Part shown: positions 21,663 to 34,067 of the stretch, in pieces
Layout: every line of letters starts with the position of its first letter
How positions within the stretch are numbered: position 1 is the stretch's first letter
From: Candidatus Aminicenantota bacterium
Lineage (GTDB): Bacteria; Acidobacteriota; Aminicenantia; Aminicenantales; Aminicenantaceae
Assembly: GCA_029882525.1 (NCBI GenBank)
Contig: JAOUKO010000006.1
Coordinates: forward strand, 1 to 34,067
Direction: 5' to 3'
Length of the DNA stretch: 34,067 nucleotides
The notes under the pieces: generated by a model
Databases searched by the model: none
What the model was told of the DNA's origin: nothing
Seen by the model: the letters and a program-made list of their open reading frames with translations, nothing else
Made by a program: the position numbers and the translations under genes

Positions 21663-22577
21663 TTACTTTTTCAAGTTTTCGATCAACAATCCAAAATACA
21701 TCTCCCCGACTTCTCGAAAGTCATCCTGAACCTTCATCACCCCACAGATATAATTCTTAACTCTGGCTATATATATATTATGGTAGTAACGGTCCTTAAA
21801 GATATAACCCGAGGAAATCTTTTTGATATCCGAACCGCTTTTTTTCTCCAAATACTGCTCCAGCATGCTCTGCGCATCCTCATCGCCCTTTCCCTCGATA
21901 ATGAAGCATTCAAAATCACGGTCCTGAAGCCTGTAGTTGGCCACATAGCCGTCGTGGAGGAAGCTGTAGCCCAAAAAATTACGCAGGATGAACTTCTCGC
22001 TGTTCTTGATCAGTCCCTCCTGAGGAAAACTCAGAAGAAGAGGGGGAAGCAGGGCTTTATCTTTGATCTTGGCGACAATCTCCTGAGAGAGGGATTTCAG
22101 AACATCATCGGACCCTTCCCCGCAATCAAAGCAGAGAAGCTTGATGTAATATCTGCCTGCGATAAAATTCAAGGTCCCCTCTTCCAGGTATCCCTGGTTT
22201 CCTATGGGGAGGAAACGGCTTTCCGGATACCTCTCAGCACTGTAGATCCCGAACGAGTTCTTCTCATTCCCCATGTCATAGATTTCCACACTCAGGGCTG
22301 CCAGGCTGTTCTCTTTCTGATACTGTCCCACGGCCAATTCTTTAAAATCATAGGCAAGATAGATCTCTGCGGCACCGTTGATGTACTCAAAAAGGTTTCC
22401 GGGGATATAATTCTGGGGCTCTTCAGAATGCTTCCAGGCTTTAACCTCTGGCAAAAGAGAAAAAAGGGATGGGACATCTCCCTTCCTCGCCAGAAAAGCG
22501 GCACTGCCAAAAAATAAAGCGACCAGGATTAAGACGGCAAGAATCCTGATGAGTTCGATTAACTTGACTTTATTCAC
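21663..22577 (-). CDS. DUF6599 family membrane-anchored protein
   Basis: 304 residues from a GTG start with GGAG seven bases upstream. An N-terminal hydrophobic helix (about 8-30, IRILAVLILVALFFGSAAFLA) acts as signal or anchor. The outside domain carries the family pattern YIPGNLFEYINGAAEIYLAY, then FKELAVGQY, VEIYDMGNEKNSFGIYSAER, FIAGRYYIKL and a C-terminal NYICGVMKVQD. Function unknown. Such proteins are frequent in Aminicenantes and Acidobacteria genomes, as far as I recall. It is divergent from the DUF362 gene and preceded by a fair promoter (22610-22639). Confidence 0.72.
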   Translation of the reverse strand: MNKVKLIELIRILAVLILVALFFGSAAFLARKGDVPSLFSLLPEVKAWKHSEEPQNYIPGNLFEYINGAAEIYLAYDFKELAVGQYQKENSLAALSVEIYDMGNEKNSFGIYSAERYPESRFLPIGNQGYLEEGTLNFIAGRYYIKLLCFDCGEGSDDVLKSLSQEIVAKIKDKALLPPLLLSFPQEGLIKNSEKFILRNFLGYSFLHDGYVANYRLQDRDFECFIIEGKGDEDAQSMLEQYLEKKSGSDIKKISSGYIFKDRYYHNIYIARVKNYICGVMKVQDDFREVGEMYFGLLIENLKK

Positions 22578-22609
22578 GGGGGGACTCCATCGATTGATTT
22601 GACTTATTC

Positions 22610-22639
22610 AATATAAGCTGAAAAACACACCTTTGACAA
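22610..22639 (-). promoter_or_regulatory. Probable promoter of the DUF6599 gene
   Basis: On the minus strand TTGTCA (22639-22634) and TATATT (22615-22610) have an 18-base spacer. The start would be near 22603, with a leader of about 26 bases. Confidence 0.5.
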
Positions 22640-22688
22640 GCCTTTTCTTTTTTTTCGCGGCAAAGAATCCACTGCCTTATATCTTTAT

Positions 22689-22718
22689 TTGCATACCGCT
22701 TAAATTTGTTGATATCAT
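22689..22718 (+). promoter_or_regulatory. Possible promoter of the DUF362-AmrS-spermidine-synthase-like operon
   Basis: TTGCAT (22689-22694) and TATCAT (22713-22718) with an 18-base spacer, just before AGGAGA at 22724-22729. The close packing of start point and ribosome-binding site makes this uncertain. Confidence 0.35.
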
Positions 22719-22741
22719 ATAAAAGGAGAATTTTTACGGCC

Positions 22742-23638
22742 ATGGCATCATCTCAAGTCGTTATCGTCAGAGGGAAAGGAGTACTGACTCAAGACGAAAA
22801 CATCGACCAGAAGAAGCTCCTGCGGATGTACTCCCGGGGATTCCAGCTTATCCTGGACTCCCTCAATCCAAAAGAAAGCCTCCGGCGACTCTTTAAAGCC
22901 GATGACAGAGTGGGTATAAAGATCAATACCATCGGCGGCAAGAGAATCTCCACCAGGCCCGAAGTCTCTCAATCTCTGGCCAATTTTCTGGTTGATAGCG
23001 GGATCCCGGACAGGGGGATTGTCATCTGGGACCGAACCAACAGGGAATTGAGGGAGGCGGGATATCGCCTGAACATGAACCGCAGCGCCCTAAAAGTTCT
23101 GGGCACAGACACCAATGGCATCGGGTATAATTTTGACCTGGTATCTCACCTCAACATCGGCAGCCGATTCTCCAGGATTCAGACCGACACCATCACCACT
23201 TCAATAAGCCTGGCCATTTTAAAGGACCATGGCATGGCTGGAATCACAGCCGGAATGAAAAACTATTTCGGAGCCATTCACAATCCGAATAAATACCATG
23301 ATTCCAACTGCGATCCATTCGTGGCTGAGCTGTTTGAAACCAGTCCGATTAAAGAGAAACATAGGCTTTCTATACTGGACTGCCTCGTTGTTCAGTATCA
23401 TAGGGGGCCTGCCTATCATACCCGATGGGCAAAAAAATACGAGGCTCTTGTCTTCAGCCTGGATCCTGTGGCCGCTGATTTCGTAGGATGGCAGGTCATC
23501 GAACAGCTCAGGGCTCAGGACGGGCTGCCGTCTTTGAAAGAAGAAAACAGAGAGCCGAAGTATCTCCAGACCGCCGTAAAGATGGGCTTGGGAAAGGCGA
23601 GCTCCGGCGAAATCAAGATCATTGAAGAGGAAATATGA
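22742..23638 (+). CDS. DUF362 domain protein
   Basis: 298 residues from the ATG at 22742. One DUF362 domain covers most of the protein: VGIKINTIGGKRISTRPE, GIPDRGIVIWDRTN, AILKDHGMAGITAGMKNYFG (about 159-178), LSILDCLVV and LDPVAADFVGWQVI. No ferredoxin-type cysteine motifs are fused, unlike many DUF362 proteins. The biochemical role is unknown. A TTG start at 22706 is possible but falls in the promoter region. The AGGAGA at 22724-22729 is rather far (12 bases) from the ATG. The stop overlaps the radical SAM gene by 4 bases (ATGA), so the two are translationally coupled. Confidence 0.87.
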   Translation: MASSQVVIVRGKGVLTQDENIDQKKLLRMYSRGFQLILDSLNPKESLRRLFKADDRVGIKINTIGGKRISTRPEVSQSLANFLVDSGIPDRGIVIWDRTNRELREAGYRLNMNRSALKVLGTDTNGIGYNFDLVSHLNIGSRFSRIQTDTITTSISLAILKDHGMAGITAGMKNYFGAIHNPNKYHDSNCDPFVAELFETSPIKEKHRLSILDCLVVQYHRGPAYHTRWAKKYEALVFSLDPVAADFVGWQVIEQLRAQDGLPSLKEENREPKYLQTAVKMGLGKASSGEIKIIEEEI

Positions 23639-24756
23639 AAAGGAGACAATTCTTCAAAACAGCAGGAGGAGCTGCCCTCCTTACAAGTTCTGGCTTGGGC
23701 TCTTTGCTGATGGATCTCTATGCGTTCAGCGGGCAGGAGAATCTATCCCAAGTGGAGGCTCGCTACTATAAAAAGCATCCGGACAGGGAAATCGAGTGCG
23801 AATTATGCCCCCGATTCTGTAGGCTGGGGGATAAAGAAAGAGGCTACTGCGGTGTCAGAGAGAACATCGGAGGCACTTATTACACCTTGGTCTACGGAAA
23901 AGCCTGTTCCGCCAACATCGACCCTATAGAAAAAAAGCCCCTCTTTCACTACCTCCCTGGCAGCAGTGCCCTCTCCATAGCCACGGCTGGCTGCAACGTG
24001 AACTGCAAATTCTGTCAGAACTGGGAGATCTCCCAGGTCAGGCCTGAGCAAGTCACGCATTACGATTTTCCTCCTCAGGCTGTTGTCCAAAGTGCCCAGA
24101 AGAACAACTGCCCTGTCATCGCCTACACCTACACTGAGCCCATCATCTTCTATGAATACATGTACGACACCTCCATTGAAGCGCATAAAAAGGGAATCCA
24201 TAACGTCGTCATCACCGGTGGCTACATCAATCCTGAACCTCTTGTGGAGCTGACCAAGGTGGTGCAGGCCATAAAAGTCGACCTGAAAGCTTTTTCCCAG
24301 GATTTTTACGCATCCTATGTCAGAGGAAAGCTGGAGCCTGTCCTGGAAGCCATCAAGATTATCTCCAAGAGCAAAGTCTGGATGGAAATCGTGTATCTTG
24401 TCATCCCCACCCTTAATGACAGTCCCCAGGAAATCAGAGGAGTGAGCCAGTGGCTTAGGAAAGAAGTCGGTCCTGATGTCCCCCTTCATTTCTCTCGATT
24501 CCACCCCATGTATCTGGTAAAAAACCTGCCTTCGACTCCTGTCTCCACCTTGGAGCGAGCACACAAGATCGCCAAAGAAGAAGGGCTCAACTACGTGTAT
24601 ATCGGCAATGTCCCGGGACACCGGGCGGAAAGTACCTACTGCCCCAAATGTGGAAAGGTGGTCATCGAAAGAAAAGGTTATCTGATAGAAAGTATCGAAC
24701 TGGCAGAGAATAGATGCAAAAACTGTAGTACGCCTATTCCAGGAATTTGGAGTTGA
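23635..24756 (+). CDS. AmrS-like radical SAM protein with an N-terminal Tat-type signal
   Basis: 373 residues. Family signs: an N-terminal cysteine cluster (C55-x2-C58, C62, C72), the radical SAM C120-x3-C124-x2-C127 with NWEISQ, IAYTYTEPIIFYEY, VVITGGYI, and a C-terminal zinc ribbon (YCPKCG ... RCKNC ... GIW). These match the AmmeMemoRadiSam-system radical SAM enzyme, a relative of pyruvate-formate-lyase activases. The usual partners AMMECR1 and MEMO1 are not in the window. The N terminus MKRRQFFKTAGGAALLTSSG looks like a twin-arginine signal, odd for an enzyme needing cytoplasmic SAM and reductant. The gene overlaps both neighbours. The reaction is unknown. Confidence 0.88.
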   Translation: MKRRQFFKTAGGAALLTSSGLGSLLMDLYAFSGQENLSQVEARYYKKHPDREIECELCPRFCRLGDKERGYCGVRENIGGTYYTLVYGKACSANIDPIEKKPLFHYLPGSSALSIATAGCNVNCKFCQNWEISQVRPEQVTHYDFPPQAVVQSAQKNNCPVIAYTYTEPIIFYEYMYDTSIEAHKKGIHNVVITGGYINPEPLVELTKVVQAIKVDLKAFSQDFYASYVRGKLEPVLEAIKIISKSKVWMEIVYLVIPTLNDSPQEIRGVSQWLRKEVGPDVPLHFSRFHPMYLVKNLPSTPVSTLERAHKIAKEEGLNYVYIGNVPGHRAESTYCPKCGKVVIERKGYLIESIELAENRCKNCSTPIPGIWS

Positions 24757-26897
24757 AAGACTTTCTCCCTCCTATTCTACTGGGATTTCTTGCTCTTTCA
24801 TTTCAAATTTTCCTGTTGAGGGAATTCTCTGTCCATTTCTACGGCAACGAAATCACTTTCGGGTTTATCCTCGCGGCCTGGCTTTTGTGGGGTGGGTTGG
24901 GAAGTATTGCCGCCTCTCAATTGAAATATTCTCCAGCCCGGTTCATCCGGGCCTATTACCTGGTCATCCTCATCTTTCCTGCTTGTCTTGTCGGGCTCAG
25001 GCTTTCCCGATTTTTACTTAACCTTCTCCCCGGTGAGATCACCGGGATCATTCCCATACTGGTCTCTTCTCTTCTGCTGGCTCTATTCGTCAGCTTTCCC
25101 CTGGGGATTCTTTTTGTCTTCAATGCTCTTTTCCAGAAAGGAAACCTCTATCAGGTCTATCTCCTTGAGTCTTTCGGTTCCTCGGTGGCTGGATTGCTGG
25201 TCTATTTCGTTCTCATTCCCTTCTTCTCCAATTGGCATGGAGCCGCTATTATCGGAGCCATCGTTTGCCTAGCGGCTTTTCTCACTTTTGGCGGAAAAAA
25301 GCAAATACTCTTTCCCCTTGGCATCCTGGTTCTCCTCGCCCTCTTCTGCATATTCGATTTCCCCAGCCAAAAGACCTACTGGAAGCCTTTTCAACTCATC
25401 AAGAGCAAAGACTCACCCTACGGAAAGCTCCAGGTTATCCAGACTGAGGAGCAGATATCTCTGTACAACAACAGCCTGCTCGACTATACCTACCCGAACC
25501 TGGCTTCCTCCGAGGAATCCGTTCACTTCGCGCTGCTCCAGAATCCTCAGGTCGAGCGTGTGCTGCTGGTGGGCGGAGGTGCAGGCGGAAGCCTGGCACA
25601 GATCCTGAAATATCCCAGGACAGAGGTCGATTATGTCGAGCTCGATCCGGAAATCATACATATGTCATTTGAATTTTTACCTGAAAAAGAGCGCAAAATC
25701 CTGAAGGACAAACGGGTCAAGATATTTTATCAGGATGGAAGGGCCTTCCTCGAGAAAACCAAAGAAATCTACGGGATGATCATCCTCAACCTCCCTGAAC
25801 CCGCTACCGCCCAGATCAACCGATTCTACACCAAGCAATTTTTCTTGAAAGCCAGAGAAAAATTGAACGAACAGGGAGTCTTTTCCTTCCGGGTCCCCTC
25901 AGCAGAGAATTACATCAGCCCTGAGCTCCAGGATTTTCTCTCCTCGCTCTATCACACTCTGAAAGAGGCTTTCCCTGTTGTTGAAGTCGTGCCCGGCGAC
26001 ATGAACGTCTTCCTGGCATCCTCCCGTCCTTTAACCATTAAATATGAGGATCTCAGTCACAAAATCGAAAGCCTCAACCTCCGGAATACGTATATCAGCC
26101 CCAATCTTCTCTTTTCACGTCTGAATCCTCTCCGAGTGGAGATGGTCAAAGAAAAAGTTCTCACCGGGAAAAAGACCATCAACCTCGACTTTTCCCCTAT
26201 CAGTTATTTCTATAATTCCGTGCTGTGGAGCACACAATTCAAAGGATTGGAAAGGAATGTGTTTTCTTTCTTCTCTTCCCTGCGTCCTTTCTGGCTGTTG
26301 GATTTCCCGTTGATTCTTTTCATTCTGCTTCTCATTATCCTCTGGCTGAGAAAGAAAAAATCTTCATTCTTCCTCGTCCCTCTCACTGTCATGGGATTCA
26401 CCACCATCGTCGCTGAAATCATCGTCATCGTTTCATTCCAGATCCTCTTCGGATACCTCTACCGAAGTATCGCTCTCCTGCTTACCTCCTTCATGTTCGG
26501 CCTCTTTTTAGGTTCTCTCCGGGGCAAAAAAAGAAAAAGAATAGAATTCGGGCAGCTTCTTCTTATTCAGGCCGGCTTTCTTCTTCTCCTCCTTGTACAA
26601 CAGTTTTCATTAAGGATGAATCCTCCTGAGATCTTATTCTTCCTCTACCTCCTTGCCCTTGGCTTTTTGGGGGGAGATCTGTTCATTGTTTCTAACCACC
26701 TTCTCCTCAAAGAAAAGAAAAACTATGGCCTGGGCTATGGATTGGACCTGCTCGGCTCCTTCGTTGGAGCACTCGCCGCTTCCTCTCTTCTGATTCCGCT
26801 GGTGGGGCTTCCTCATCTTCTTCGCTATCTTTTTATTCTGAATTCTTTTTGCTTCCTCTTTCTCATTGGAGGCTGGAAAAAAAATAGAATGGAGTAA
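24747..26897 (+). CDS. Membrane protein with an embedded spermidine-synthase-like methyltransferase-fold domain
   Basis: 716 residues: about seven N-terminal membrane helices (1-205), a spermidine-synthase-like domain (about 215-430) and a second membrane block (about 505-716). The SAM-fold loop is VERVLLVGGGAGGSLAQIL and the acidic strand end is DYVELDPEI. Where active aminopropyltransferases have a catalytic Asp before the DP motif, this has IILNLPEPATAQINRFYT, so Asp is Asn and polyamine synthesis is doubtful. The TTG at 24747 overlaps the radical SAM gene by 10 bases; the TTG at 24753, with AGGA at 24741-24744, is equally possible. Such fused proteins are widespread and uncharacterised. 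Confidence 0.83.
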   Translation: MELKDFLPPILLGFLALSFQIFLLREFSVHFYGNEITFGFILAAWLLWGGLGSIAASQLKYSPARFIRAYYLVILIFPACLVGLRLSRFLLNLLPGEITGIIPILVSSLLLALFVSFPLGILFVFNALFQKGNLYQVYLLESFGSSVAGLLVYFVLIPFFSNWHGAAIIGAIVCLAAFLTFGGKKQILFPLGILVLLALFCIFDFPSQKTYWKPFQLIKSKDSPYGKLQVIQTEEQISLYNNSLLDYTYPNLASSEESVHFALLQNPQVERVLLVGGGAGGSLAQILKYPRTEVDYVELDPEIIHMSFEFLPEKERKILKDKRVKIFYQDGRAFLEKTKEIYGMIILNLPEPATAQINRFYTKQFFLKAREKLNEQGVFSFRVPSAENYISPELQDFLSSLYHTLKEAFPVVEVVPGDMNVFLASSRPLTIKYEDLSHKIESLNLRNTYISPNLLFSRLNPLRVEMVKEKVLTGKKTINLDFSPISYFYNSVLWSTQFKGLERNVFSFFSSLRPFWLLDFPLILFILLLIILWLRKKKSSFFLVPLTVMGFTTIVAEIIVIVSFQILFGYLYRSIALLLTSFMFGLFLGSLRGKKRKRIEFGQLLLIQAGFLLLLLVQQFSLRMNPPEILFFLYLLALGFLGGDLFIVSNHLLLKEKKNYGLGYGLDLLGSFVGALAASSLLIPLVGLPHLLRYLFILNSFCFLFLIGGWKKNRME

Positions 26898-27109: not shown

Positions 27110-29356
27110 TTATTGATTCGAGAATTCTGGTTCGATCCCTATCTCTTTCAGGATATGGTCGGCGTGCTCGACGGCATCGAGGATCCAGAGGATGTAGCGA
27201 ACATCGACATGGATGGACCTGGTGAGGTCGGGCAGGAAGACCAAGTCGCTGGCCACTCCTTCTATGTTACCGTCGAAGAGTATGCCGGCGAATTCGGCTT
27301 TATTGTTCAGAGTGGCCGAGCCTGAATTCCCTCCAGTTGCGTCAAGGTCAGTCAACAGGTTCACTGGAACCTCTCCGGCTTCTTCAGATACATAAGAACC
27401 GAAACGTCCAGATTGGATGGCTTCGATGATCGAATCAGGAGCATCGAACGGCTGTTCGCCCTTGTTTTTAGTCCATTTTTCCACTACCTGAGAGACCTTG
27501 GTGAACGGGAAGTATTTCTCCTTATCCGGTGCCGGCTTGTAGCCGCGGACCGTACCGAATGAAATGCGGATGGTGCCGTTGGCATCCGGAGCGATGTTGC
27601 CCTGGTAATAGTCACGCAAGGCATAATAATAATGGGGGCGGAGCAGCACCGAAGCGCCGGAGTAACTCTTCTCGCTTTCTCTGAGCTGTTCGATGATTAG
27701 GCTGAGTTTCAGGGCAAACTGGATCAAGGTATCTTCGCTCTTGTTGAGGTCTTCCAGGCTGGCGTTCTTTAACAGGTTGAGGCGGTATTCCCTGTTTTCC
27801 ATCCTGGACCCGTCAAAAAGCGCGTTGACTTTCTGACGGATTCCCTCTTCACTGACCTCTTCACCGCCAAACAGGCCTTCCAAAATTTCAGGGCGTTCTT
27901 CATCTGGAAGTTTCAGTCCCTCCGCAATGGTTGTGACCAGCATGGTAACGTCGATCTCTCGCGAATAAGTCCGCTGCAGGCTGATCTGCTCCTGTTCGAT
28001 CCGCCTCCAGTTGCGCTCCTGGTAGGCCGGATCCCGTTCGTTATCGGGCTTGGGACGTTCTTCCGCCATCCGGACGATGGTCACGGCAGAGCTGGTTAGA
28101 GGAGCAAGAAATCTGCTCCCCATGAACCGCATCAACATATTAGCTTCCCATGATTCTTGATATTCCTCAAACAGCTTATCCAATTCCTGGATAATGGTCC
28201 CGTATTTTTCTTTCCGCTCAGAATCAGACCGTATCCATTTTTGCAATTCCTTTTCTTTCTGGATTTTCTCGCGGACGATATCCTTCTTTCGAGCGCCTTC
28301 CAAGACACCGATAGAGTTCTTTTTGCTGTTTTCCAGACCGGATAATATTCGGGCAGCTTTGATCTCTAAATCTTTATCATCTCCGACTGTTTCATTGACG
28401 GCATCGATGTAGGTCTGAAAGAGTTCGACCCTCCGGGGCAGGTTCTGATCGATCTCGAATCGAGTTTCCAGGGTCGTGGTCAACCGCTCGGTGCTCCCGG
28501 GATAACCGATAACAAAAGCGAGGTCCCCTGACTTGAACCCTTCTTTGGAAACACGCAGATAGGCTTTCGGTTTGAACGGAACATTATCCACAGAGTAATC
28601 CGCTGGTTTGCCATCTTTTCCCACATAAGCTCTTAACAGCGAAAAGTCCCCGGTGTGACGGGGCCACATCCAGTTGTCGATGTCTCCTCCGAACTCGCCG
28701 ATCCCCCGATGAGGAGCGTACACCAGACGGACATCACGGATTTCCAGTCTGACGATAACATAATATTGTCCTCCGCCGTAGAAATTGGCCACCTCACAGC
28801 GGGAATCAGGATTGGCTTCCTCGAATTCCTTGACGATAGCTTTTTCCCGCCTTTCGATCTCATCGTACCTCTCTAGATCATCTTCTATCCCGTCGATTCC
28901 CTCCAACATACGATTGGTGACATCGATGACAGCGGTGGTGACATACACCCGGGCTGTTGGACCTGCGGATATTTCTTCTTCACGGTTTTTAGCCAGGAAT
29001 CCTGTGTGGAGCAGGTTGTTATCCTTGGTCGAGTTGTACTGCAGGTATCCTCGGACACAATGGTAGTTTGTGATGATCAGTCCGTCCGGACTGATGAATG
29101 AGGCTGAACATCCTCCGAGACTGATGATGGCGTTCAACGGGAATTCCAGAGGATCGGAAAACACCTCCGGGTCAATACCCAGGCCCATCTCTTTTAAGGT
29201 GTCGCCGTGGATTTCCGCGACTTGCTGCGGCAGCCACATCCCCCCGGGTTCATAGATCAAGGCCTCGCCGGCATCAGTGGTTTGAGTAGATTCCGGCCGG
29301 CATGAAATTAAGCATAACAAACAGAGGATGGTAACGAAAATAAGGGTTTTTCTCAT
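27110..29356 (-). CDS. S46-family dipeptidyl-peptidase, probable lipoprotein, DPP7-type
   Basis: 748 residues. Removes dipeptides from peptide N termini outside the cytoplasm. MRKTLIFVTILCLLCLISC ends in a lipobox (LISC, Cys19), so the enzyme is probably membrane-anchored. Catalytic triad: His99 in ITNYHC, Asp in GGDIDNWMWPRHTGDF, Ser678 in GGNSGSATLN. The specificity position after the serine reads FDGN (Gly696), as in DPP7, which prefers hydrophobic P1 residues; DPP11 has Arg there. I chose the ATG at 29356 with AGGAGA eight bases upstream; the in-frame ATG at 29422 would bury the signal peptide. A perfect -10 box TATAAT lies at 29454-29449 with no clear -35. Confidence 0.94.
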   Translation of the reverse strand: MRKTLIFVTILCLLCLISCRPESTQTTDAGEALIYEPGGMWLPQQVAEIHGDTLKEMGLGIDPEVFSDPLEFPLNAIISLGGCSASFISPDGLIITNYHCVRGYLQYNSTKDNNLLHTGFLAKNREEEISAGPTARVYVTTAVIDVTNRMLEGIDGIEDDLERYDEIERREKAIVKEFEEANPDSRCEVANFYGGGQYYVIVRLEIRDVRLVYAPHRGIGEFGGDIDNWMWPRHTGDFSLLRAYVGKDGKPADYSVDNVPFKPKAYLRVSKEGFKSGDLAFVIGYPGSTERLTTTLETRFEIDQNLPRRVELFQTYIDAVNETVGDDKDLEIKAARILSGLENSKKNSIGVLEGARKKDIVREKIQKEKELQKWIRSDSERKEKYGTIIQELDKLFEEYQESWEANMLMRFMGSRFLAPLTSSAVTIVRMAEERPKPDNERDPAYQERNWRRIEQEQISLQRTYSREIDVTMLVTTIAEGLKLPDEERPEILEGLFGGEEVSEEGIRQKVNALFDGSRMENREYRLNLLKNASLEDLNKSEDTLIQFALKLSLIIEQLRESEKSYSGASVLLRPHYYYALRDYYQGNIAPDANGTIRISFGTVRGYKPAPDKEKYFPFTKVSQVVEKWTKNKGEQPFDAPDSIIEAIQSGRFGSYVSEEAGEVPVNLLTDLDATGGNSGSATLNNKAEFAGILFDGNIEGVASDLVFLPDLTRSIHVDVRYILWILDAVEHADHILKEIGIEPEFSNQ

Positions 29357-29859
29357 TAAATCTTTCTCCTTTTTCCTAAAGTGATTGATATATTTAAATT
29401 TTGGATAATCCTGTTTACTCAATCCTCTAAGGATTGATTTTAAACACTATTATACTCCAATTTATTTGTAAACAATATTTCATCCGATGACAGAAAGTAA
29501 GCTGAGTGAATATTGACTCCAACGTGAGTATTATCAATCCATTTGACTGTTTTTCTTCTGATGGATTATTTGGCTGGCACCAGATCAGCGAGGCTGAATA
29601 CTCAAGAAATGCCTCGATTGTCAAAAAACCTTAAACATATACGCCTTTCCAACCTCCTCTTCCTCATCTTCTTCACTATTTTTTCCTCCTGTACTCTTTT
29701 TGTCTTCTTTTTTTTGTCGGAGGATGGAGAAAAATTATTTTTTTGTGATAATTTCTTGACAGAAAAACGGAATTATGATTTACTGTAAGGTAATTCATTT
29801 CTCTATAATTCCTATATTAACTATAGGGATTTGTCCCTAGTTTGAAAGAGTGAATCCTC
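29357..29859. other. Divergent regulatory region between the S46 gene and hdrC (503 bases)
   Basis: For the S46 gene (minus): TATAAT at 29454-29449 and a perfect 7-bp hairpin in the leader (TCAATCC at 29419-29425, GGATTGA at 29431-29437). For hdrC (plus): a promoter at 29756-29784, another TATAAT at 29804-29809, and a bulged hairpin near 29819-29842 (TATAGGGA, then TCCCTA). Between them is T-rich sequence with an 81-codon frame that I do not think is a gene. Confidence 0.55.
29756..29784 (+). promoter_or_regulatory. Possible promoter of the hdrCB-korDABC operon
   Basis: A perfect TTGACA (29756-29761) and TTTACT (29779-29784) with a 17-base spacer. The start near 29791 gives a leader of about 70 bases that contains the bulged hairpin at 29819-29842. 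Confidence 0.42.
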
Positions 29860-30267
29860 ATGAGAATCAACATATCCAAAAGAAAGATCAGGGATCGTTT
29901 TGTGGCCAAAATCGAAGAGTTAAGCGGCCAAAACCTGCTTGCCTGCTATCAATGCGGCAAGTGTTCTGCGGGATGCCCGGCTGTCTCTCAGATGGACATT
30001 CTTCCCAACCAGATCATCCGCTTCGCTCAGCTGGGCTTCAAGGATGAACTCCTGAAATCCAAGTCCATCTGGATCTGCGCCTCCTGTTTCACCTGCAATG
30101 CCCGCTGTCCCAAAGGCATTAATATTGCTGAAGTCATAGAGGCTATCAGGCAAATCCTGCTCCGGAAGAGAGAAGACCATGTCCAGGTCCAAAAGCTTTC
30201 GGATTCAGAAAAAGGTGATATTCCTCCGATTGCGCTCATCAGCAGCTTGAGGAAATTTACATCTTGA
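29860..30267 (+). CDS. hdrC: Heterodisulfide-reductase subunit C-like iron-sulfur protein
   Basis: 135 residues, soluble. Two [4Fe-4S] motifs: C29-x2-C32-x2-C35-x3-C39-P and C73-x2-C76-x2-C79-x3-C83-P. In Hdr complexes HdrC passes electrons between the flavin subunit HdrA and the HdrB site. It is followed by hdrB, with a 54-base gap. No hdrA gene is in the window, so the partner may be encoded elsewhere or replaced by the Kor proteins. No strong ribosome-binding site precedes the ATG. Confidence 0.88.
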   Translation: MRINISKRKIRDRFVAKIEELSGQNLLACYQCGKCSAGCPAVSQMDILPNQIIRFAQLGFKDELLKSKSIWICASCFTCNARCPKGINIAEVIEAIRQILLRKREDHVQVQKLSDSEKGDIPPIALISSLRKFTS

Positions 30268-30321
30268 ATTGAGATATTATGATTTATAACTTTTTTTATT
30301 TTCGTTTCATAAAGGATCATA

Positions 30322-31200
30322 ATGAAAATAAGCTATTATCCTGGTTGCACTCTGAAAAACAATGCGAAAAATTTTGAAGATTCGACACTTTGCTCCCTAA
30401 ATAAACTCGGAATACAAGTCGAAGAGCTTCCCCGCTGGAACTGCTGTGGAACGGTCTTCTCTCTGGCCACTGATGACCTCATCCATCATTTAGCTCCCCT
30501 CCGCAACCTCATCCGGGTCAAGGAATCCAACTCAGACAAGGTCATGACTCTCTGCGCCATGTGCTACAACACCCTGAAGAGAGCCAACGAAAGAGTCAAA
30601 TCCGACCCGGAGAGTCTCGATAAAATCAATGAATTCATGTACCGCGAAAAAGTCAAATACAAAGGAGACGTGAAAATTCTTCACCTCCTGGAGCTCCTGA
30701 GGGACGAGATAAAATTTGAGACCATTGCCCAGCAGGTGGTCAAGCCGTTAAAAGGATTGAAAGTGGCCAATTACTACGGCTGCCTGTTGGTCCGTCCCAA
30801 GGAAATCGGCCTGGACGACGTCGAAAACCCGACCATCTTGGAGACGCTGACAACCGTCCTGGGTGCAGTGCCCATAGATTTTCCTTACAAGACAGAATGC
30901 TGCGGGGCTTATCAAACGGTCGACAAGCCTGATATCGTGGCCGAACGGACTTACCAAATCCTCACCTCAGCTCAATCACAGGGAGCGGACATTGTTGCCG
31001 TGAGCTGCCCTCTCTGTGCCTTCAACCTTGACCACCGCCAGCAACACACCGTCAAAAAATATCCTGAATTCAAGCATATCCCTATCCTTTATTTCACTCA
31101 GCTCTTAGCCATAGCTTTGGGTTGCCCCGAGGAAGCGCTCAGGTTCGACCTCCATTATGTCGACCCTAAGCCTGTTCTCAAAGAGAAGGGATTGATTTGA
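30322..31200 (+). CDS. hdrB: Heterodisulfide-reductase subunit B-like protein
   Basis: 292 residues with two CCG domains. The first: YYPGC9, WNC41C42G, LC78AMC81. The second: YYGC154, TEC193C194G, SC-x2-C near residue 231. These sets hold the unusual non-cubane [4Fe-4S] clusters of HdrB, the site of disulfide reduction in methanogens. In bacteria the real substrate is often unknown. AAAGGA lies before the ATG. korD starts 7 bases after the stop, so hdrCB and kor form one operon. Confidence 0.9.
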
Positions 31201-31207
31201 GGGACAA

Positions 31208-31483
31208 ATGATACATTTTGGCGATCTCAAATCCAAAAAGGGCAAAATTCACATCGAAAAAGACAGGTGTAAGGGATGTGGATTCTGCGTGGAATACTGC
31301 CCGAAAGATGTCCTTGAGCTCTCCGAAGAGTTCAACATCAAAGGATATCATCCTCCGCTAGTCGTGAGGGAGGATGACTGCCTCTACTGTCAGCTCTGCG
31401 AGACCATATGCCCTGAGTTTGCCATATTTGTCACTCTCAAGAAAGAGGAGAAAGAAGGTGAAAAAGGTGAAAGCAGACCCTAA
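31208..31483 (+). CDS. korD: 2-oxoacid:ferredoxin oxidoreductase, ferredoxin-like delta subunit
   Basis: 91 residues with two [4Fe-4S] motifs: C21-x2-C24-x2-C27-x3-C31-P and C58-x2-C61-x2-C64-x3-C68-P. It carries electrons from the TPP/iron-sulfur centre of the Kor enzyme to ferredoxin or to the neighbouring Hdr proteins. GAGGG lies just before the ATG, and the 3' end overlaps korA by 26 bases. The C-terminal tail is highly charged (EKEGEKGES). Confidence 0.9.
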
Positions 31484-32624
31484 AGGAGTATTAACCGGCT
31501 CCCATTATTTAGACGGAGACTACGCCCTTGCTGAAGGAGCTCTGGCGGCTGGCTGCCGCTTCTTCGCTGGCTACCCCATCACTCCCTCCACAGAAACAGC
31601 CGAACGATTCTCTGAAAGGATTCCTATGGTTGGCGGAGTCTTTATCCAGATGGAAGACGAGCTCGCTTCCATAGCCGCCCTGATCGGGGCTGCCTGGGGT
31701 GGAAAAAAATCCATGACCGTGACTTCCGGCCCGGGGTTTTCCCTTATGATGGAAAATATCGGGCTGGCCTGTATGCTGGAAACACCTCTGGTGATAGCCA
31801 ATGTCCAAAGAGGAGGCCCTTCGACAGGGCTCCCCACCTTGACCGGTCAGCAGGATATGATGCAGGTCAAATGGGGATCGCATGGCGATTATAAGATCAT
31901 CGCCCTTTCCCCCGATTCTCCTCAGGAATGTTTTGACCTCACCATCGAGGCCTTCAATTTATCCGAAATTTACCGGGTTCCCACTTTTGTCATGACCGAC
32001 GAGTGTGTCGGGCACATGCATGAGAAGGTGGTCATCCCTCCAGCCGAAGAGATCGAGCTCGTTGAAAGGAAATGGTATTCAGGCCCCAAGAACGAATACC
32101 TTCCTTTCAAGCCTGATAAGGATATGGTTCCATTCATGGTCAAAGTCGGTGACGGATATCATTTCCATATTACTGGATTAACCCACGACGAGCACGGCTA
32201 TCCGGTGATCAACGCCGAATGCCAGGATGTCTGTGTCCGCCACCTGAATGACAAGATCACCAATAATGCCGATAAGATCATCAGAATCGAAGAAGACCAA
32301 ATAGACACCGCTGAAATCGTAGTCATCTCCTACGGGATCACCTCCAGGGTGACAACAAGAGCGGTAAGGAAAGCAAGAGAGGCTGGCATAAAAGTCGGAA
32401 CAATCCGGTTGATCACTGTCTGGCCTTTTCCCGAGAAGCGGATCAAAGAGCTGGCTAAGAAAGTGAAGGCCTTCGTCGTCCCCGAGATCAATTATGGACA
32501 GGTCGTCCATGAAGTTGAACGGAGCGCTGCAGGTCAAGCTCCGGCTATCCTTGTCCCTCACTGCGGAGGTTGGGTCCACGACCCGGATGATATTCTTAAG
32601 GCTATCAAGGAGGCTGCCAAATGA
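31458..32624 (+). CDS. korA: 2-oxoacid:ferredoxin oxidoreductase alpha subunit, probably 2-oxoglutarate type
   Basis: 388 residues. Contains [18 protein letters not shown] (pyrimidine-binding part of the TPP enzyme fold), [44 protein letters not shown] and the C-terminal domain [16 protein letters not shown]. These fit KorA. The GTG at 31458 is chosen because AGAGGAG at 31444-31450 lies 7 bases upstream; the frame opens earlier (an ATG at 31374), but that would overlap korD by 110 bases. The stop overlaps korB (ATGA). The exact 2-oxoacid cannot be proved from sequence. Confidence 0.93.
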
Positions 32625-33493
32625 AGGAAGAAGACCGTCTCGAAGAAAGAAATCCCATCGAAGATCTTCTGAGAATGGACCGGATCCCCCATATCTGGTG
32701 TCCTGGCTGTGGAATAGGAACAGTCGTCACCTCCTTTGCTGAAGCTCTGCGCAAGAGCAAGATCGACCTGGATAAGGTGGCGATCCTCTCCGGAATCGGA
32801 TGCACAGGACGGGTAGCCGGTTACATCAAGCTGGACTCCATCCACACCACGCATGGCCGCGCTATTCCTGTGGCTACGGGTCTGAAGCTGGCCAATCCCG
32901 ATTTAAAAGTAGTCGTGTTCAGCGGAGACGGAGACATCGCCGGAATCGGGGGCAACCATTTCATCCATGCCGCTCGAAGGAACATGGACCTCATCATCAT
33001 CTGTGTCAATAATTTCAACTATGCCATGACCGGCGGCCAGGTGGCACCCACAACGCCGATCGGAGGCAATGCCTCCACAGCCCCTTACGGGAACTTCGAG
33101 TATCCTTTTAGCCTTCCCTATCTGGCTGAGGCCTGCGGAGCCACTTATGTCGCCCGCTGGACAGCCCTCCATCTCAGGAGAGTGACCAAGTCGATCCAGG
33201 AAGCTTTCAAAAAGAGAGGATTTTCCTTCATCGAGGTCATCACTCCTTGTGTGACCCTCTATGCCCGCAGGAACCGCCTCGGCGACGGACTGAACCTTCT
33301 TAAATATTACTATGAAAAATCCGAGATCCAGCATGGAGCAGACACCAGAACCCTGGATATCAGCTACCAGGGAAAACTCATCGTCGGCAAATTCGTCGAC
33401 AAGGAAAAACCAACCTTCCTGGATTGCATGAACGAACATCTCGCCAAGGTCTTGGGAGATAAATACCAGCTCTATGGAGTAAACAATGAGTGA
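32621..33493 (+). CDS. korB: 2-oxoacid:ferredoxin oxidoreductase beta subunit
   Basis: 290 residues. TPP and Mg binding: FSGDGDIAGIGGNHFIHAAR, followed by NNFNYAMTGGQ. The iron-sulfur ligands include WCPGCGIG near the start (about 26-33), GIGCTGR, and a later Cys in ITPCVTLYARRN. It catalyses oxidative decarboxylation of the 2-oxoacid with korA. Start and stop overlap both neighbours, typical of a tight operon. Confidence 0.95.
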   Translation: MKEEDRLEERNPIEDLLRMDRIPHIWCPGCGIGTVVTSFAEALRKSKIDLDKVAILSGIGCTGRVAGYIKLDSIHTTHGRAIPVATGLKLANPDLKVVVFSGDGDIAGIGGNHFIHAARRNMDLIIICVNNFNYAMTGGQVAPTTPIGGNASTAPYGNFEYPFSLPYLAEACGATYVARWTALHLRRVTKSIQEAFKKRGFSFIEVITPCVTLYARRNRLGDGLNLLKYYYEKSEIQHGADTRTLDISYQGKLIVGKFVDKEKPTFLDCMNEHLAKVLGDKYQLYGVNNE

Positions 33494-34067
33494 GATTCGG
33501 TTTTCTGGTTTTGGGGGTCAAGGGATCATCCGCTGTGGATTGATCACGGGAAAGGCACTGGCTCTCTTTGACAACAAGCATGCGACGATGACCCAGAGCT
33601 TCGGTCCCGAAGCAAGAGGAAGCGCCTGCAGTTCCCAGCTCGTCGTTTCTGAGGACCGGGTCCTCTATCCTTACATAACAGCACCGGAAATCCTGGTCTC
33701 TATGTCCCAGGAAGCCTATGACAAATATGAACCCGAATTGAGAGAGGACGGGGTACTGATCATCGATAAAGATCTGGTCAAGACCAAGCCTGCTCGAGGA
33801 AAAATCAAAACCTATGCCATTCCCTCAACCCGGTTTGCCGAGGAACTCGGAAATCGGATCACCGCCAACCTGGTCATGCTCGGATTCTTTTCTGCTGTGA
33901 CCGGGATTGTTTCCTCGGAGGCCATGAAGCAAGCTCTCCCAGGCCTCGTTCCTTCGAGATTTCTCGACCTCAACAAAAGAGCGTTTGATAAAGGCTTCGA
34001 GTATGGGAAAGAGGTCCTGGCTGAGGAGAAAAAGCCAAAAACTCAGAAAGCAGCGAAATCTCCAGGC
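33486..34067 (+). CDS. korC: 2-oxoacid:ferredoxin oxidoreductase gamma subunit (3' end outside the window)
   Basis: 194 codons are visible with no stop before the edge. FSGFGGQGIIRCG near the start and MTQSFGPEARGSACSSQLV (about 36-54) are the gamma-subunit signature; the CoA-binding role is assigned from the family. The family is usually about 180-190 residues, and the visible Lys-rich C-terminal end (EEKKPKTQKAAKSPG) suggests only a few codons are missing. The ATG overlaps the korB stop by 8 bases. Confidence 0.92.
   Translation, partial: MSEIRFSGFGGQGIIRCGLITGKALALFDNKHATMTQSFGPEARGSACSSQLVVSEDRVLYPYITAPEILVSMSQEAYDKYEPELREDGVLIIDKDLVKTKPARGKIKTYAIPSTRFAEELGNRITANLVMLGFFSAVTGIVSSEAMKQALPGLVPSRFLDLNKRAFDKGFEYGKEVLAEEKKPKTQKAAKSPG

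Follow-up and report, generated by a model that had tools for sequence, protein, structure and literature searches.

A three-gene operon of Candidatus Aminicenantes and a predicted extracytoplasmic AmmeMemoRadiSam variant

In a Candidatus Aminicenantes genome, three overlapping genes on the + strand encode a DUF362 protein, an AmrS-type radical SAM enzyme with a Tat signal and a 14-helix membrane protein (Table 1). The genes were originally predicted to form a candidate pathway of their own, without the AMMECR1 and MEMO1 that usually accompany AmrS. The window, that is the whole 34,067-nucleotide stretch of DNA that was analyzed, was compared with the remainder of its source genome, with genomes of the same phylum and with species genomes outside it. 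On sequence grounds, the products of the operon are very probably three components of an AmmeMemoRadiSam variant that is exported to work outside the cytoplasm.

Table 1. Positions of the operon genes, their domains and motifs, and the adjoining divergent gene in the window
Feature	Position	Strand	Basis
DUF6599 protein, N-terminal hydrophobic anchor or signal	21663..22577	- (divergent)	PF20244, 162.6 bits
Intergenic stretch between divergent DUF6599 and DUF362 genes	22578..22741	.	Sequence
DUF362 protein	22742..23638	+	PF04015, 59.3 bits
Invariant H163...K173 of DUF362, H-x-x-A-G-x-x-x-G-x-K	23228..23260	+	Invariant columns of alignment A4
ATGA stop/start overlap of DUF362 and AmrS	23635..23638	+	Sequence
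AmrS-type radical SAM enzyme with Tat signal	23635..24756	+	TIGR04337, 391.5 bits (cut-off 220)
Tat signal of AmrS, MKRRQFFKTAGGAALLTSSGLGSLLMDLYAFSG	23635..23733	+	R3 and R4 invariant in 17 aligned relatives (alignment A2)
Radical-SAM motif CNVNCKFC	23992..24015	+	C120, C124 and C127 invariant (alignment A2)
14-helix membrane protein with SpeE-fold domain	24747 or 24753..26897	+	716 aa; PF01564 Spermine_synth, 89 bits
N-terminal repeat, TM1-6 plus TM7	24753..25379	+	AF2 helices; homologous to C-terminal repeat
SpeE-fold domain	25380..26276	+	Foldseek; column counts; alignment to 1uir/3anx
TM8 plus C-terminal repeat TM9-14	26286..26891	+	AF2 helices; hhalign

Layout and distribution of the gene cluster

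All three genes lie where the original prediction had placed them, and the ATGA overlap of the DUF362 and AmrS genes is exact. The 10-base overlap claimed for AmrS and the membrane protein is correct if translation starts at TTG 24747 and is lost if it starts at the in-frame TTG 24753, which leaves a TTGA overlap. The latter codon is supported by an AGGA 8 nt upstream and by a good N-terminal fit to a relative (L121, alignment A1), and was judged from the sequence to be an equally good or better start.

Promoters for the DUF6599 and DUF362 genes are presumed to lie together in the stretch between them. The divergent placement of DUF6599 is repeated in loci L120, L122-L124 and L140-L144, and of the 59 loci with enough flank, 13 have the gene no more than 4 kb from AmrS; it is a recurrent accessory neighbor of the AmrS cluster. 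A second DUF6599 gene of the same genome (L242:1083-3004, G000:C126) is directly followed by a Tat-DUF362 gene, and DUF6599-DUF362 may be a recurring unit. Downstream of the operon, a Peptidase S46 gene (dipeptidyl-peptidase family, 719 bits) occupies 27110-29422 of the window on the opposite strand. HdrC/HdrB-like and 2-oxoacid:ferredoxin oxidoreductase genes follow at 29860-34067 and are found in the same position in L120, L123 and L140.

The order DUF362-AmrS-membrane protein is conserved in ∼10 Aminicenantes genomes. A scan outside the phylum, with 17 Tat-AmrS sequences against 84,980 species genomes, yielded 80 loci. Scan loci were from Acidobacteriota, Aminicenantes, Zixibacteria, KSB1, Calditrichota, Latescibacterota, Planctomycetota, Poribacteria, Thermodesulfobacteriota, Myxococcota, Omnitrophota, Armatimonadota, Elusimicrobiota and Nitrospirota, among others. 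Among the 43 loci with at least 3 kb of flank on both sides of AmrS, at least one of the three partners was encoded within 3 kb of it in 35, at least two in 23 and all three in 11. The original prediction stood or fell with linkage beyond close relatives, and such linkage was found across more than 10 phyla.

The co-occurrence count that had been proposed for the three families was run on 149 genomes of the phylum. The window type of AmrS and the membrane protein were found together in 43 genomes, alone in 3 and 2 respectively and both missing in 101 (p 2.6e-31), the corresponding counts being 43/3/5/98 for a MEMO-AMMECR1 fusion (p 4e-28) and 25/21/1/102 for DUF362 (p 9e-15); these p-values ignore relatedness, and the presence sets were set by hand from score thresholds. 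Because the gene order is kept in ∼10 Aminicenantes genomes and the partners track AmrS across more than 10 phyla, the arrangement exceeds chance. The membrane protein was full-length or nearly so in 8/8 named genomes tested, in several of which it was not adjacent to AmrS. In the cultured Desulfoferrobacter suflitae DRH4, for example, the fusion and AmrS are neighbors (L209), and the membrane protein is encoded at G149:C44.

AmrS and its MEMO and AMMECR1 partners

The window AmrS begins MKRRQFFK and has the features of a Tat substrate, with a twin-arginine motif followed by a hydrophobic stretch and a Tat translocase in the genome (TatC, contig C391). Its CxxxCxxC cluster motif is intact and is invariant among aligned relatives, the nearest named relative being that of Candidatus Aminicenantes CP070750.1 (73%). 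A Tat motif with a hydrophobic stretch was found in 107 of 118 AmrS of the window type and in 1 of 18 cytoplasmic-type controls, the exception being an over-long ORF; the controls start ∼16-30 residues ahead of the first cysteine. The division into these two sets was by score, with an HMM trained on exported members. In a tree calculated without the N-termini, all 118 window-type sequences fell on one side of a single branch of moderate support (SH-aLRT 88), with the window AmrS placed within this exported group.

One AmrS clade (12 rows, support 99; L100-L104, L135-L138, L236, L238 and L239) has a strictly conserved CxxCH, with the Tat signal on one side and the radical-SAM domain on the other in 12/12 sequences. 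CxxCH is typical of c-type cytochromes, in which haem is attached outside the cytoplasm. The motif hints that these radical-SAM proteins may bind haem covalently, with zinc as an alternative. Sec-like or anchor N-termini without a Tat motif were found on AmrS of the exported group in L196, L202, L216, L218 and L219, which is odd for an Fe-S-cluster protein and is a counterpoint to the export model. The catalytic domain of AmrS is predicted, with strong support, to be extracytoplasmic.

A whole-genome search of the source genome (3.51 Mb, 91.6% complete) located three full AmrS, two AMMECR1 and three MEMO. The reported absence of AMMECR1 and MEMO1 therefore holds within the window and fails for the genome, where both are present, including in a signal-bearing MEMO-AMMECR1 fusion; an AmrS free of AMMECR1 and MEMO1 was thereby ruled out for this genome. 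The fusion (C357:142-1575) is encoded on a different contig from the operon and begins MRKKTLFHSLLFILCISLLWSQ, a signal peptide. AmrS, AMMECR1 and Memo genes are not adjacent in the window and are adjacent in many relatives, and the same fusion type adjoins Tat-AmrS in many relatives, including other members of the phylum. Within the window's class, relatives of the C357 protein are also unlinked to AmrS (G093, G060, G111, G072, G146, G020, G004 and G047), and the basis for assigning the fusion to the system in this class is co-occurrence (43 of the 46 phylum genomes having the window AmrS type).

A hydrophobic N-terminus was found on 59/63 MEMO-AMMECR1 fusions, and their catalytic domains are likewise predicted to lie outside the cytoplasm, again with strong support. 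On a Planctomycetota contig (L200:4568-6868), signal peptide, MEMO, truncated AMMECR1 and AmrS are joined in a single 767-aa polypeptide. The MEMO iron ligands are retained in exported fusions as H69 (66/66), H101 (66/66) and C245 (65/65), the counterparts of the iron-binding H49, H81 and C244 of human MEMO1 (PMC11081632).

The exported system has in common with AmmeMemoRadiSam (TIGR04337, PF01871, PF01875) an AmrS above cut-off, the radical-SAM motif, all three families, the Memo iron ligands and the AMMECR1 LRGC motif. It differs in having Tat/Sec signals on AmrS and on the fused MEMO-AMMECR1, and in its constant 14-TM SpeE-like partner, often with DUF362; neither a SpeE-like nor a DUF362 partner was found near the 18 cytoplasmic AmrS controls. 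In the literature compared, to which the 2019 Memo-AMMECR1 paper in JBC (Burroughs et al.) did not belong, nothing was found on the triad, the membrane protein or an exported AmrS. The exported version is widespread and apparently undescribed.

The membrane protein and DUF362

The AF2 model of the membrane protein (pLDDT 92.9) consists of seven helices, a SpeE-fold domain and a further seven helices. By hhalign, the TM halves are homologs of one another (98%, E 1.3e-13), with 2% for a reversed control. Such duplicated halves are found in many transporters, and two homologous six-helix halves are shared with MFS-type transporters, the window protein having 14 helices in total. Loop K+R content averaged 20.9 per protein on the N-terminal side versus 3.1 on the domain side, with the same bias in 32/32 sequences. 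By the positive-inside rule, this bias places the SpeE-like domain outside the cytoplasm, a strongly supported prediction; the RKKKSS loop that follows TM8 would be cytoplasmic.

The best Foldseek hits were all SpeE (E 6e-13, TM ∼0.74 by target), and the top hits spanned the SpeE domain only; the N-terminal TM region matches that of PRK03612. The domain has the fold and nucleoside pocket of SpeE aminopropyltransferases, pocket residues G276, E298, D300 and D330 being retained. It differs from SpeE and PRK03612/MFS_SpdSyn (NF037959) in its second TM repeat past the domain, in its replaced catalytic acids (A279 and N348, matching neither GGG(D/E) nor D-x-x-D-P) and in scoring below all cut-offs, far below in the case of the SpeE equivalogs (132 vs 472, 115 vs 260, 87 vs 250). 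In most family members V, L, A, P or I stands in place of the acid after GGG, and 21/32 sequences have Asn at the position of the catalytic Asp. An active spermidine synthase was rejected because of these altered residues.

The window DUF362 has no signal peptide of its own, nor has any Aminicenantes DUF362, and the protein may stay in the cytoplasm in this lineage. Orthologs of other lineages carry Tat signals; of the 41 orthologs scored, 32 have one by rule, and at least 3 more were recognized by eye. Tat is able to export unsignalled partners in complex (PMC10924467). A PDB fold search with the AF2 model of DUF362 (pLDDT 95.1) returned the LarA family (best E 1.2e-5).

Proposed route, alternatives and implications

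In the proposed route, AmrS would receive its 4Fe-4S cluster before leaving the cytoplasm by Tat. In most lineages DUF362 would cross via a Tat signal of its own; in Aminicenantes it would perhaps ride on AmrS. Outside, the transporter-like membrane protein would supply S-adenosylmethionine, with the SpeE-like domain holding or handing over the nucleoside, and electrons would arrive from membrane or periplasmic carriers, such as a NapH-like polyferredoxin or haem c in some lineages. The 5′-deoxyadenosyl radical would then modify a substrate, to be bound or processed further by AMMECR1, the iron site of MEMO and the LarA-fold DUF362.

A role in SAM supply is plausible for the membrane protein, though held at rather less than even confidence, because it is a constant partner with transporter-like halves, a SAM-type pocket and lost catalytic residues, and because an exported radical SAM enzyme would need SAM. 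The complete pathway, in which a dedicated SAM carrier is combined with electron delivery by polyferredoxin or haem c, is put forward tentatively. We know of no extracytoplasmic radical-SAM enzyme and of no periplasmic SAM supply.

The membrane protein could instead be an extracytoplasmic methyl or aminopropyl transferase acting on the AmrS product. Its SpeE fold (TM-score ∼0.74 by target length) and retained nucleoside pocket agree with this, but the acid after GGG is mostly lost, the catalytic Asp is often Asn, the scores fall far below the SpeE equivalog cut-offs and a transferase would likewise require SAM or dcSAM outside; we regard it as unlikely. A downstream role for DUF362, as a LarA-type nickel-pincer-nucleotide enzyme transferring hydride after the radical step, is less probable again. 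DUF362 and LarA (superfamily DUF2088) are both in Pfam clan CL0471, and the spacing of H163 and K173 equals that of the LarA residues His174 and Lys184 (PMC11770544). The fold fits and the source genome encodes LarC and a LarA, but although hhalign paired the His/Lys columns, the overall sequence match to LarA is weak. LarC, of the LarB/C/E set on which LarA/NPN enzymes depend, was also not detected in G013, G078 and G144, three genomes of 99-100% completeness that all have a linked DUF362, and so the nickel-pincer cofactor is not general for DUF362.

If the AmrS N-terminus were merely Tat-like and the cluster an ordinary cytoplasmic system beside a membrane protein, the unsignalled window DUF362 would be accounted for, and the radical SAM enzymes known to us are all cytoplasmic. 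This reading is nevertheless very improbable given the frequency of the Tat motif and hydrophobic stretch in window-type AmrS (107/118 vs 1/18 in controls, that one an over-long ORF), the signals on MEMO-AMMECR1 fusions, the CxxCH behind a Tat signal and the single signal-MEMO-AMMECR1-AmrS polypeptide of L200. Least credible of all is a separate three-gene pathway independent of AMMECR1 and MEMO1; in Aminicenantes the three genes are indeed linked and the fusion lies elsewhere, but the fusion accompanies the AmrS type in nearly every genome of the phylum that has it and is part of the same cluster in other lineages. What had been called an uncharacterized pathway thus retains its linkage and is better read as the exported branch of AmmeMemoRadiSam, given AMMECR1 and MEMO1 in the genome and in the clusters of relatives. 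Also part of the original prediction, and judged right, was a radical-SAM step associated with the membrane, with co-expressed genes and a SAM-fold domain carried by the membrane protein.

If true, the complete pathway, with its own SAM supply and electron line, would represent, to our knowledge, the first extracytoplasmic radical-SAM chemistry, spread over more than 10 phyla. The exported branch makes a sharp claim: SAM must occur outside the cytoplasm, or else exported radical-SAM proteins function without it. Export would call for a route by which S-adenosylmethionine and electrons reach a radical enzyme outside the cytoplasm, and for the SAM supply the membrane protein, as a near-constant partner, is a concrete candidate. 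Conservation of MEMO1 and AMMECR1 extends to humans, and no reaction of either is known to us. Export signals on Memo, AMMECR1 and the radical-SAM enzyme would make a cytosolic RNA or protein substrate unlikely in the exported branch, which narrows the possible roles of the human proteins. The shared MEMO/AMMECR1 chemistry becomes testable by localization and envelope analysis.

Other families also recur around the cluster. Response-regulator/GGDEF neighbors (10 loci) were discounted as belonging to a generic family. A second Tat-DUF362 recurs, as do DUF6599 and membrane polyferredoxins of the NapH/NosR type. No such polyferredoxin was seen in the neighborhood of the window, and a NapH-like gene was found near AmrS in 8 loci, a raw neighbor count that is suggestive only of a link to the cluster. 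In the single-contig genome G010, the SpeE-like membrane protein itself (L139:7000-9504) carries a C-terminal Fer4_5 (NapH-like) 4Fe-4S membrane region.
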